Part shown: piece by piece, positions 18,363 to 25,986 of the stretch | Position numbering within the stretch: the stretch's first letter is position 1 | How the letters are laid out: the number at the start of each line of letters is the position of its first letter | Source of the DNA: Coleofasciculus sp. FACHB-1120 | GTDB taxonomy: Bacteria; Cyanobacteriota; Cyanobacteriia; Cyanobacteriales; FACHB-T130 | Direction: 5' to 3' | DNA: 64,000 nt | Assembly: GCF_014698845.1 (NCBI RefSeq) | Contig: NZ_JACJTV010000012.1 | Span: forward strand, 1-64,000 | Position numbers and translations under genes: made by a program | Notes under the pieces: generated by a model | What the model was told of the DNA's origin: nothing | The model's database searches: none | The model's input: the letters and a program-made list of their open reading frames with translations, nothing else

Positions 18363-20061
<1,699 letters not shown>

Positions 20062-20063
20062 CA

Positions 20064-20103
20064 GGCTGTGTAGAGACGTAGCATACTACGTCTCTACACA
20101 GCC
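20064..20103 (+). terminator. 18-bp hairpin after the Ro-like gene
   Basis: 20064-20081 pairs perfectly with 20086-20103 around CATA. It lies between the Ro-like gene and the DIP1984-like gene and may attenuate rather than fully stop transcription, since no U tract follows. Confidence 0.6.
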
Positions 20104-20141
20104 CCGCTCAAATTTAATTAAATTTAAAGTGGGAAAGCATC

Positions 20142-20600
20142 ATGAAATTAGCAGAAGCTCTAATTCTGAGAGCAGATTGTCAGAAAAGAATTGAGCAATT
20201 AAGGCAAAGATTAATCAGAAGTGCCAAAGTTCAAGAGGGAGAACAACCGCCTGAAAATCCCCAAGCATTGATTGCTGAGTTAGAAGCAACATTAAATGAA
20301 CTAGCAGACTTGATTAAGAGAATCAACAAGACCAATTCATTGACAAATTTGTCAGACGAAATGACCATATCTGATGCTTTAGCACAGAGAGATACACTTT
20401 TGTTAAAAAGGAGTATATATGATTCTCTAGTTAATGCAGCCGCTCTTACCGCAAATCGGTACAGTCAAGCTGAAATTAAATCTTTCAGCACGGTTAATAT
20501 TGCAGAGCTACAAACGCAAATGGATCAACTATCTAGACGAATTCGTGAGTTAGATACGAGAATCCAATCAGCCAACTGGAATATTGACTTAATGAATTGA
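20142..20600 (+). CDS. DIP1984-like coiled-coil protein
   Basis: This 152-residue, nearly all-helical protein begins MKLAEALILRADCQKRIEQL, then EGEQPPENPQALIAELEATL and LIKRINKTN near 66, the hallmark blocks of the DIP1984 family (also labelled septicolysin-like). The family's function is unknown. Heptad-like patterns near 5-30 and 118-150 suggest coiled coils. It lies 80 bp downstream of the Ro-like gene and directly upstream of the two tandem RNAs, which suggests a role in the same RNA-linked system; that link is inferred from position only. Confidence 0.75.
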   Translation: MKLAEALILRADCQKRIEQLRQRLIRSAKVQEGEQPPENPQALIAELEATLNELADLIKRINKTNSLTNLSDEMTISDALAQRDTLLLKRSIYDSLVNAAALTANRYSQAEIKSFSTVNIAELQTQMDQLSRRIRELDTRIQSANWNIDLMN

Positions 20601-20602
20601 GC

Positions 20603-20821
20603 ATGTTGGTAGCCCGATCAATAGAAGCGAGTACAACCCGCTAACTGGGTTAAGTTGGGTTTAGTGGCTACAAATAGTCGCTATTTGGTGGCATGAGGGG
20701 CCATGCTATGGGTTCAAATCCCACTGCACAAGTTAAGCCCAGTATTGTTACAAATGTACAGGGCATTGTGAAAGTTACTACCGTGTACTGGTCTATTGAT
20801 TTTGGTGAGGGTGGGTTAGGG
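20603..20821 (+). ncRNA. Structured RNA, tandem copy 1, with a T-arm-like hairpin
   Basis: This region and 20861-21056 are diverged copies. Shared structure: outer helix AGTACA (20630-20635) with TGTACT (20784-20789); long helix ACTGGG-TTAA-TTG (20644-20657) with CAA-TTAA-CCCAGT (20729-20743); hairpin GCATG/CATGC (20691-20706). Copy 1 also has TGGG-TTCAAAT-CCCA (20709-20723), a textbook tRNA T arm, and AAATAG-TCG-CTATTT before it. Helices are kept by paired changes in copy 2. I do not recognise the family. Position after the Ro-like operon suggests a Y-RNA-related or other Ro-bound RNA. Ends are approximate. Confidence 0.6.
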
Positions 20822-20860
20822 GTTTCATGCTCAAATAACTAATTGATTAATTGAAAATTA

Positions 20861-21056
20861 AGTTGGTAGCCAATTCAGCAGAAGCGAGTACGAAACCCTG
20901 CCAATTGGGTTAAGTTGGCAACAGCCTTTTAAGCTGGCATGATGGGCCATGCCAATACCTAACAAGTTAAGCCCAGTATTGTCACAAGCGTACAGGGTAT
21001 TGTGAAAGTTACTACCGCGTACTGGTCTGTTGCATTTGGTGAGGGTGGGTTAGGGG
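20861..21056 (+). ncRNA. Structured RNA, tandem copy 2, without the T-arm hairpin
   Basis: The outer helix is AGTACG (20887-20892) with CGTACT (21018-21023); relative to copy 1 the closing A-T pair has become G-C on both strands. The long helix is ATTGGG-TTAA-TTG (20904-20917) with CAA-TTAA-CCCAGT (20963-20977), one pair now G-U. The hairpin is extended to GGCATG/CATGCC (20936-20953). The T-arm-like hairpin of copy 1 is missing. Both copies start GTTGGTAGCC and end GGTGAGGGTGGGTTAGGGG. Ends are approximate. Confidence 0.58.
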
Positions 21057-21112
21057 ATTTAAAATTCAATTAGTCATGTTTGCATCTGCCGCAAATGTTT
21101 TGAATTGTATAA

Positions 21113-21149
21113 ATGCGATCGCTAGATCCAAAATTAGTACGGAACGGCG
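21113..21149 (+). repeat. Direct repeat, left copy
   Basis: ATGCGATCGCTAGATCCAAA and the following AATTAGTACGGAACGGCG recur with few changes at 21967-22004 in the same orientation. The two copies bracket the DUF4262 gene and the Ro-like remnant. Confidence 0.7.
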
Positions 21150-21173: not shown

Positions 21174-21221
21174 CTAATGGAAATTTTGGAGATACCTTTG
21201 CCTGTTCGGGATGATAAGTAG
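21174..21221 (+). pseudogene. Remnant: last 15 codons of a second Ro-like gene
   Basis: Reads [15 protein letters not shown]-stop, nearly identical to the end of the Ro-like protein ([15 protein letters not shown]), with several silent differences at the DNA level. No other part of that gene is present upstream, so this is a leftover of a duplication of the locus. Confidence 0.75.
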
Positions 21222-22844: not shown

Positions 22845-23390
22845 ATGAATAATTCTCGCTTAGTTAAAATTAGCAAATATCTCAGTAAGCATCTTCGGCA
22901 TACTCCTGAAGCTATTGGTATTGAACTTGCACCTGGTGGCTGGGTTGCTGTCGATGAACTTCTAAAAGCGTGTGCAGAGCGTTCTTTTATTCTTACTCGT
23001 GCTGAACTTGATGAAGTTGTTGCTAAAAATGACAAAAAGCGCTTTTCTTTTGACTCAACAGGCACCTTAATTCGGGCGAATCAAGGACATAGTACAGAAG
23101 TTGATTTGCAGCTAGAAGCCGTTGTTCCTCCAGATGTATTATACCACGGTACAGGAAACGGTACAGTCGAATCAATTTTAAGTACAGGACTGTGTAAAAT
23201 GTCGCGCCACCACGTCCATTTATCGAAGGATATTCCTACCGCAAAAACTGTAGGCGCACGGCATGGTCGTCCAGTAGTTTTTGCTGTAGATGCGGCGGCG
23301 ATGCACAAAGCAGGATATGAATTTTACTGTTCTGAAAATGGGGTTTGGCTAGTGGATTGCGTTCCAGTCGAATACTTGCAACAAATTTAA
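22845..23390 (+). CDS. kptA: RNA 2'-phosphotransferase, KptA/Tpt1 family
   Basis: This enzyme moves an internal RNA 2'-phosphate to NAD+, making ADP-ribose 1''-2'' cyclic phosphate. In eukaryotes it finishes tRNA splicing; in bacteria its natural substrate is uncertain, and RNA repair is a leading idea. The 181-residue protein is full length. The N-terminal winged domain has SKYLSKHLRH with the conserved Arg-His, GGWVAVDELL and RFSFD. The NAD-binding domain has YHGT (near 101), SRHHVHLS (near 122), ARHGRPVVFAVDA (near 138) and NGVWLVDCVPVEYL. Active-site Arg/His residues are present. It lies 18 bp after the DUF6939-like gene. Confidence 0.92.
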   Translation: MNNSRLVKISKYLSKHLRHTPEAIGIELAPGGWVAVDELLKACAERSFILTRAELDEVVAKNDKKRFSFDSTGTLIRANQGHSTEVDLQLEAVVPPDVLYHGTGNGTVESILSTGLCKMSRHHVHLSKDIPTAKTVGARHGRPVVFAVDAAAMHKAGYEFYCSENGVWLVDCVPVEYLQQI

Positions 23391-25017: not shown

Positions 25018-25986
25018 ATGACAGATATTCGCAACCTCCTTAACCAAATTGCTGCACAGGAAGTGCAATTGCGCGATACTAAATTTCTCGCACCGTGCGT
25101 GGGTGGGGGAAAAGTACGCGCGTCTGTAGCGGGGATGGTTTACACGTTTAAACCGCAGCCACAAGACTTTGAAGGATGGGGCATTTTTCAGCCGATAAAT
25201 GAGAAAAAGGCTGAGATGGTAGAGGAAGCAAACTTGCCGCAGGTGGCGGAATATCTGCGACTGTTGAAGCCGTTGCGCTTGCGTCTGGCTTATGTTTTGC
25301 AAGGACAGACGTGGCTGGCGTACCCTGTCAATGAATCTGATATGCAGCAGCGCTTGGGTGTTGCTAAGCCGGTGCCGGTGTATTTAGTTACCGAGGGGGC
25401 AGCATTTGAGCCTGCGATCGCGCGTTGGGATGGCAGCGCTTGGTGGTTTGATGAACTGGATCGACGTGCCGATCCCCTGGTGGCGGAACAACTTAGAGAA
25501 CAATTGAGGAATGGGACGGAAACAGAAAATCTTCGTTTTGCGGGGATGACGCCAGAGATGCGTACCGTCTATGACTTGGCGTTGCAGCAGACAGAAGAAT
25601 ATCAACGTAGAAGACAGCAACAACTTGAGGAAGAACGCTTGCGCCAGCGGCGACGGGATACAAGACGCCAGCAGCAGGCACAGCGCCCATACAGACACTA
25701 TCAAGAGGCAAGGCAAGATCCGTATCGGCGGGCGATGTCAGGTGATGAAAGGCGCGTGCGCGATGCCTTGGGGATGGGTGGTGGCGAACTCGAAGATGTG
25801 CGCGATCGCGGTGACTTTTGGCAAGTGGAGTGGATGACTCGCAGCGGTGAACGTCACATCTCTGCCATTGACAAGCGCGATCTGACAGTAATAAGTTCTG
25901 GCATTTGCCTAAGCGGACGCGATCGCGATTTTGACTTGCAATCCCTCGTTGGCGTAATCGAAGCGAGAGATACCTGGGACTTTTGA
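25018..25986 (+). CDS. Unrecognised protein with a basic coiled-coil segment
   Basis: The 322-residue protein has no family I recognise. Residues 1-160 look globular (APCVGGGKVRASVAGMVYTF, YVLQGQTWLAYPVN). Residues about 190-240 are an Arg/Gln-rich helix (YQRRRQQQLEEERLRQRRRD) likely to bind nucleic acid or form a coiled coil. The C-terminal 70 residues form a small beta-rich domain (WQVEWMTRSGERHISAIDK). It is followed after 24 bp by the ThiF-like gene, so the two probably form one operon. Confidence 0.8.
   Translation: MTDIRNLLNQIAAQEVQLRDTKFLAPCVGGGKVRASVAGMVYTFKPQPQDFEGWGIFQPINEKKAEMVEEANLPQVAEYLRLLKPLRLRLAYVLQGQTWLAYPVNESDMQQRLGVAKPVPVYLVTEGAAFEPAIARWDGSAWWFDELDRRADPLVAEQLREQLRNGTETENLRFAGMTPEMRTVYDLALQQTEEYQRRRQQQLEEERLRQRRRDTRRQQQAQRPYRHYQEARQDPYRRAMSGDERRVRDALGMGGGELEDVRDRGDFWQVEWMTRSGERHISAIDKRDLTVISSGICLSGRDRDFDLQSLVGVIEARDTWDF

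Follow-up and report, generated by a model that had tools for sequence, protein, structure and literature searches.

Which gene do two similar, structured elements belong to that lie in tandem between a DIP1984 gene and the rest of a gene island in Coleofasciculus sp. FACHB-1120, and what kind of RNA would they encode? We analyzed a stretch of 64,000 nucleotides from this cyanobacterium (the window), for which the original prediction had described two diverged copies of one structured RNA at 20603-21056, considered them a possible new RNA family tied to Ro-like proteins. In our best reading the two are copies of one free-standing structured RNA with DIP1984 as its dedicated partner, and we are practically certain that a real structured RNA family tied to DIP1984 exists.

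Two RNA copies and the fold of the family

Both copies are present and show 75% identity by BLAST, copy 2 being found with copy 1 as blastn query at E 1e-36. The base changes noted between them proved to be genuine: the A-T pair closing AGTACA/TGTACT in copy 1 is replaced by G-C in AGTACG/CGTACT of copy 2, and the long helix CAATAGA/TCTATTG reads CAGCAGA/TCTGTTG in copy 2, which corresponds to one compensatory change from T-A to C-G and one change from A-T to G-T. The last pair of the hairpin GGCATG/CATGCT, a G-T in copy 1, is a G-C in copy 2, and a T-arm hairpin with a canonical 7-nt T-loop (TGGG-TTCAAAT-CCCA) is found in copy 1 but not in copy 2. In minimum free energy the copies are indistinguishable from their shuffled versions (z -0.47, +0.07, -0.59 and +0.61), so that two copies alone are weak evidence and it is the homologues that make the case conclusive. 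The RNA also extends further than described before, as copy 1 possesses an additional outer helix P0; copy 2 probably has an A/T-rich outer helix as well. Behind copy 2, at 21178-21221, the Ro-like gene's 3' end is repeated over a short stretch (ATGGAAATTTTGGAGATACC...CGGGATGATAAGTAG), which looks as though a part of this gene had been duplicated together with the RNA. The positions of all elements are listed in Table 1.

Table 1. Features of the DIP1984 RNA locus and its surroundings in the window.
Feature	Position	Strand	Evidence or remark
YrlA-like Y RNA of the Ro-like gene	18363..18503	+	tRNA-like part 18404-18469
Divergent Ro60/TROVE homologue with vWA domain, facultative neighbour	18493..20061	+	fold search
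DIP1984 family protein (DUF6847/PF20935; old name 'septicolysin'), 152 aa	20142..20600	+	Pfam 1.7e-55; NCBIfam NF038048 2.8e-57
P0 outer helix, 5' strand GAGCATG, overlaps DIP1984 stop codon	20599..20605	+	pairs with 20826-20832
RNA copy 1 core, P1 to conserved 3' loop	20605..20822	+	covariance model R1 182.9 bits, E 1.3e-53 (sequence among the 30 used to build R1)
P1, 5' arm (GCC...CAATAGA)	20612..20625	+	3' arm 20792-20806; pairing test, double changes
P2, 5' arm AGTACA	20630..20635	+	3' arm TGTACT 20784-20789; core pairs 99.5% paired
PK1, H-type pseudoknot	20636..20658	+	ACCC (20636-39)/GGGT (20647-50), CTAAC (20641-45)/GTTGG (20654-58)
P3 hairpin, AGGGGC loop	20690..20707	+	90% paired
PK2, P3 loop GGGC with GCCC	20698-20701 with 20737-20740	+	95.7% paired
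tRNA T-arm-like hairpin TGGG-TTCAAAT-CCCA	20709..20723	+	T-loop motif; not in copy 2
Conserved 3' loop strand GAGGGTGGGTTAGGGG	20807..20822	+	nearly invariant across phyla
P0 outer helix, 3' strand CATGCTC	20826..20832	+	sequence
RNA copy 2 core, without own DIP1984 gene	20862..21056	+	R1 163.8 bits, E 8.4e-48 (also in the R1 training set)
KptA/Tpt1 RNA 2'-phosphotransferase, recurrent island neighbour	22845..23390	+	Pfam PF01885 7.9e-55

The family fold consists, in this order, of P0, a conserved internal loop, P1, a bulge, P2, an H-type pseudoknot (PK1), an optional hairpin, a hairpin whose loop pairs downstream (P3 with the second pseudoknot PK2) and an optional tRNA T-arm, and it comprises about 200 nt in the core and about 230 nt with the outer helix. 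In 85 distinct RNAs 90.4% of the cells are paired compared to 67.1% after shuffling and 30-39% with the partners slid, and 721 double-change cells stand against 193 in shuffled alignments, with none of 500 shuffles reaching as high. Compensatory double changes occur in 38 of the 39 base pairs, both pseudoknots included. While the counts for P1, P2, P3 and the T-arm in this alignment are biased towards the model by construction, an unfitted MAFFT alignment agrees with 85.1% paired cells and 222 double-change cells versus 75. In the unfitted alignment P1 shows double changes in 13 of its 14 pairs, and its arms pair better with their own partner than with swapped ones (mean -14.8 versus -5.5 kcal/mol, 0/5000 permutations). 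The same holds across the family for P0 (-9.6 versus -4.7 kcal/mol, 0/5000), which in some species is a perfect helix of 8-14 bp with unrelated letters. All five pairs of the P2 core carry double changes, as do all five of the second PK1 helix (CTAAC/GTTGG, 83% paired), and PK2 shows 14 double-change cells although its pairing was not imposed on the model; the first PK1 helix (ACCC/GGGT), likewise not imposed, is paired to 42-84% depending on the position. The selection for RNA structure postulated from the two copies is thus strongly supported by covariation across the homologues.

By contrast, the claim that the loops outside the stems vary freely turned out to be wrong, since conservation in the family is highest at unpaired positions, namely the 5' UUGGUA, the RGCG bulge and the 3' GAGGGUGGGUNNGGGG. 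P1 and P2 are separated by the conserved bulges AGCG and GG, and UUGGUAG at the 5' end of the RNA resembles a D-loop in sequence. The T-loop motif is found in 41-43 of 87 RNAs, which is about half of the family.

Distribution of the RNA and its linkage to DIP1984

With copy 1 as blastn query, matches were found in 34 of 388 genomes of the same order, the clear ones being alignable from end to end. Leaving the window aside, each of the 28 clear loci has the RNA immediately after a DIP1984 (DUF6847) gene and in the same orientation, irrespective of a nearby Ro-like gene, and this shifted our focus from the Ro-like protein to DIP1984. A covariance model (R1) built from 30 sequences of cyanobacteria and other phyla identified the RNA with at least 101 bits in 34 of the 388 genomes, all of which belong to the 37 genomes with PF20935 (34/37 with the gene, 0/351 without; Fisher p 1e-45). 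From the three DIP1984 genomes without the RNA two have only a partial gene. One cyanobacterial genome (G030) seemed to carry the RNA only, but this 46-nt match of 23 bits was taken as chance. In another one (G140) the gene and the RNA are on separate contigs, each at a contig end, which is probably explained by a contig break.

The linkage extends far beyond the cyanobacteria. Of 80 DIP1984 loci from GTDB, which cover Cyanobacteria, Chloroflexi, Acidobacteria, Firmicutes, Gammaproteobacteria, Planctomycetes, Bacteroidetes, Fusobacteria and others, 78 carry the RNA just after the gene, and in the remaining two the sequence stops 8 and 223 nt past it. The only other R1 matches on both strands of 904 kb are the second copies in the window and in a phage contig and one match at E 0.99. 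Plasmids of Streptomyces, Enterococcus and Acinetobacter and phage contigs likewise have the RNA behind DIP1984; in the phage contigs the DIP1984 proteins accompanied by the RNA are just 29-46% identical. The Acinetobacter RNAs score only 16-24 bits with R1, yet the P2 motifs and a 10-bp P1 are visible in their sequence. A blastn search with the RNA against plasmid and phage collections gave no match because the letters are too diverged, and a strict DNA pattern gave none in viral contigs. In an independent clostridial order the RNA is present in 10 of 11 genomes with a clear DIP1984 gene, with G398 having a clear gene and no detectable RNA. Four further clostridial genomes have the RNA but no DIP1984 gene. 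Two of them are weak relics and the other two, both Clostridium (loci L254 and L255 in G468 and G441), have lost all but the last ~13 codons of DIP1984 while the RNA is kept (122 and 133 bits), so that they offer a natural test of the RNA working alone. The covariance-model search with inspection of the neighbours, as originally suggested, therefore revealed homologues in many phyla with DIP1984 as the constant neighbour.

DIP1984 from the window scores above the cut-off for both of its families, and its AlphaFold2 model (pLDDT 93) shows four long helices. The closest solved structure, and the sole clear structural match, is 3KDQ, the DIP1984 of Corynebacterium diphtheriae, which has the same family and fold (Z 16.5 over 151 residues) and was solved without RNA and without a known function. 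Next comes the arm with which seryl-tRNA synthetase binds tRNA (Z 8.1), a likeness that may serve as a lead only, as any coiled coil may reach this value by chance. Upstream of the gene, at 20063-20104 between the Ro-like and DIP1984 genes, there is a 19-bp palindrome GGCTGTGTAGAGACGTAG..., and a comparable repeat is found behind DIP1984 in L128/L145.

A position right behind the gene would also fit a cis-acting 3' UTR element to which DIP1984 or another factor binds in order to control stability or translation of its own mRNA, and this fit counts against a trans-acting RNA. In 48 of 73 loci no more than about 25 nt separate the RNA from the last aligned codon (median gap to the start of the R1 model 17 nt), P0 of copy 1 overlaps the stop codon, and no constant downstream gene was found among the neighbours surveyed. 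Nevertheless we consider such an element unlikely, as second copies without a gene of their own exist in the window and in a phage contig, some RNAs are displaced by 72-529 nt from the gene, and the RNA has outlived DIP1984 in the two Clostridium genomes. These are also the reasons why we favour an action in trans. Moreover, two pseudoknots and highly conserved loops exceed by far what autoregulation needs. The phage contig mentioned (L220/L236, 178 kb, from IMG/VR) encodes DIP1984 followed by two RNA copies 0.5 and 1.3 kb downstream.

Another explanation would be a mobile protein-RNA module for addiction or defence, for example a toxin with an RNA antitoxin. DIP1984 is indeed patchy, occurring in 37 of the 388 genomes and not in the one congener searched, and it is frequent on plasmids of Acinetobacter and Enterococcus (371 plasmid records for the family) besides its presence in phage contigs. 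We regard this explanation as rather improbable, since PADLOC gave no noteworthy match and G398 keeps a clear DIP1984 without a detectable RNA, which is unexpected for a toxin without its antitoxin. In addition, the RNAs of known type III pairs change fast, unlike the DIP1984 RNA, whose letters are conserved across phyla. A type III system is recognized by a tandem-repeat RNA upstream of an endoribonuclease gene; here the RNA is downstream, usually single and non-repetitive, and DIP1984 is an all-helical bundle with 3KDQ as its only clear structural match.

The Ro-like protein and known RNA families

The label 'Ro-like' for the vWA protein next to DIP1984 is right as judged from the fold of its predicted model (pLDDT 77). 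In a Foldseek search the top 13 PDB matches were all Ro60, Rsr or TROVE proteins (E 8e-11), and the comparison with 1YVP (Z 20.9, rmsd 4.0 over 432 residues) revealed both the HEAT-repeat ring and the vWA fold. As there is no Pfam TROVE match in the protein, it is a divergent Ro60 homologue, whose gene probably starts at ~18616. Such homologues, again without a Pfam match, are found in 134 of the 388 genomes. They are enriched in genomes bearing the RNA (21/34 versus 113/354 of the others, Fisher p = 0.001), and to this extent the proposed tie to Ro-like proteins stands; as a constant partner the protein fails, because it is absent from 13 of the 34 RNA-bearing genomes, all of which have DIP1984, and it has a YrlA-like RNA of its own.

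This RNA is located just upstream of the Ro-like gene with its T-arm preceding the D-arm. Its tRNA-like part matches the Rfam family RF02553 (YrlA) with 35.6 bits (E 4e-6), under the gathering score of 69, and is enclosed by a 9-bp stem of GCTCCGCGC (18363-18371) with GCGCGGAGC (18495-18503). YrlA- or tRNA-like RNAs were also found beside 8 of 14 other Ro-like genes tested. From its sequence the part at 18404-18469 thus seems to be the Y RNA of the Ro-like protein, and with a separate YrlA-like RNA at this gene the RNAs at 20605-21056 seem to belong to DIP1984. A Ro-like paralogue in the same genome (G000:C10:95322-96764) has three tRNA-like RNAs beside it.

That both copies might instead be Y RNAs of the adjacent Ro-like protein is suggested by the fold of this neighbour, by its position next to the RNA in the window and 13 other loci, by the enrichment mentioned above and by a long stem, conserved bulges and a T-arm reminiscent of YrlA. 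We consider it very improbable, since besides the separate YrlA-like RNA and the missing Ro-like proteins a canonical TROVE protein is found in only 5 of the 34 genomes, and the YrlA model gives no match on 20550-21120 up to E 10, though it detects 18404-18469. YrlA with Rsr (Ro60) and the DIP1984 RNA have in common that a structured RNA adjoins a dedicated protein gene, that the T-arm is optional, that a long closing stem carries conserved bulges and that both are found next to rtcB/rtcA, as in the Salmonella locus rsr-yrlBA-rtcBA, where the Y RNA genes adjoin rtcBA (PMC7790460). However, YrlA RNAs are 90-150 nt long scaffold RNAs with a tRNA-like part (PMC8394870), in contrast to a DIP1984 RNA core of 180-220 nt with two pseudoknots, a T-arm missing in half of the members and DIP1984 instead of Ro60 as the constant partner. 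By the tests made here the DIP1984 RNA is therefore not a Y RNA.

No Rfam 15 family was found at the gathering threshold over the RNA in the window or in 12 homologous loci, the only match in these loci being one ordinary tRNA gene outside the RNA, and with the cut-off relaxed to E 10 the RNA gave nothing better than chance-level hits to unrelated families. Together with the homologues in many phyla this strongly supports the predicted new family. That it might be a remnant of a known element (group II intron, tmRNA, tRNA array or transposon-linked RNA) or a coding stretch, as the T-arm-like hairpin and the mobile contexts might suggest, is hardly credible given the silent Rfam models, including those for group II introns in the window and homologous loci, the absence of any tRNA or tmRNA in the RNA according to ARAGORN and Rfam at gathering threshold, and motif spacings that keep no frame. 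A coding origin had been hinted at by a GTN-ACA-NNN-GTA rhythm near the 3' half and was rejected, as the spacings between the invariant motifs vary by 1, 2 and 4 nt. With tmRNA the DIP1984 RNA shares a T-arm and several pseudoknots within one RNA, but no mRNA-like tag was identified in it and it is not universal. OLE, raiA and other large bacterial noncoding RNAs are likewise large, well conserved and free-standing, some of them with a dedicated protein neighbour, but the DIP1984 RNA differs from them in its conserved sequences, in its partner and in having no Rfam match.

RNA-repair neighbours and a possible function

In Acinetobacter the gene order is rtcB-X-DIP1984-RNA-rtcA, X being a protein of 166 aa without a Pfam match (L136 1981-2481). 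RtcB is encoded within about 6 kb in 8 of 85 loci and ties with GNAT acetyltransferases for the first place among the Pfam families of the nearest genes (5/122 neighbours each), the latter being ubiquitous. Cyanobacterial loci repeatedly contain genes for an AAA protein, a ThiF protein and KptA, the last of which follows the RNA in 6 of 28 loci. As most loci have no RNA-repair gene beside the RNA, the unit is the pair of DIP1984 and RNA and the link to RNA repair is a tendency. A 322-aa protein without a Pfam or NCBIfam match (25018-25986) recurs together with ThiF downstream of the RNA in several cyanobacteria.

Returning to the RNA as dedicated partner of DIP1984, we propose that it acts in trans and forms a ribonucleoprotein (RNP) with DIP1984 for RNA repair or quality control, an assignment from sequences that we regard as evenly balanced between right and wrong. 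The RNA would arise together with the 3' end of the DIP1984 mRNA or be released from it by cleavage, and might then be bound by DIP1984 as a bundle of long helices. The conserved loops and the tRNA-like arm could contact the machinery of tRNA processing and RNA repair such as RtcB, RtcA, KptA or the Ro60-type protein, and the particle might serve as a scaffold or tRNA mimic, parallel to Rsr with its Y RNA, which by analogy would be the closest functional parallel. The role in RNA repair is suggested by the Acinetobacter gene order, by RtcB near 8 of the 85 loci and by KptA and the Ro-like protein in cyanobacteria; the many loci without an adjacent RNA-repair gene count against it. The family can do without tRNA mimicry, since about half of the RNAs have no T-arm. 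The internal loop GUUGGUA/GAGGGUGGGUNNGGGG together with the two pseudoknots could, from its conservation, be an active or ribosome-binding centre.

Tentatively, and a little short of an even balance, we suggest a bacteria-wide undescribed class of noncoding RNA that would form an RNP with DIP1984 for the repair or surveillance of RNA, probably tRNA, as a third arrangement beside Ro/Y RNA and tmRNA/SmpB and as a mobile protein-RNA cassette. Among the open-access papers listed for DIP1984, DUF6847 and septicolysin, nearly all of them plasmid or genome reports, none concerned an RNA as judged from title and abstract, and a search for related terms within two papers on new bacterial RNAs revealed nothing similar. 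RNA-repair systems with a link to SPFH/Band-7 proteins are reported to include a 'novel tRNA-like molecule' (Burroughs and Aravind, 2016), which may have been an earlier glimpse of the DIP1984 RNA. With the present findings a protein family that has a solved structure but no assigned function, and that has long been mis-named 'septicolysin' on Acinetobacter plasmids, gains an RNA partner, and the few large bacterial RNAs of this kind are joined by one that has two pseudoknots and is conserved in many phyla. The recurrence beside RtcB, RtcA, KptA and a Ro60 homologue is a concrete and testable link to RNA repair, and as at least 469 stretches in species-representative genomes encode DIP1984 relatives, laboratory-friendly hosts should exist. 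With respect to RtcB we observed in six genomes (G020, G023, G138, G139, G206 and G276) frames of 717-777 aa with split family matches, which are probably due to inteins.
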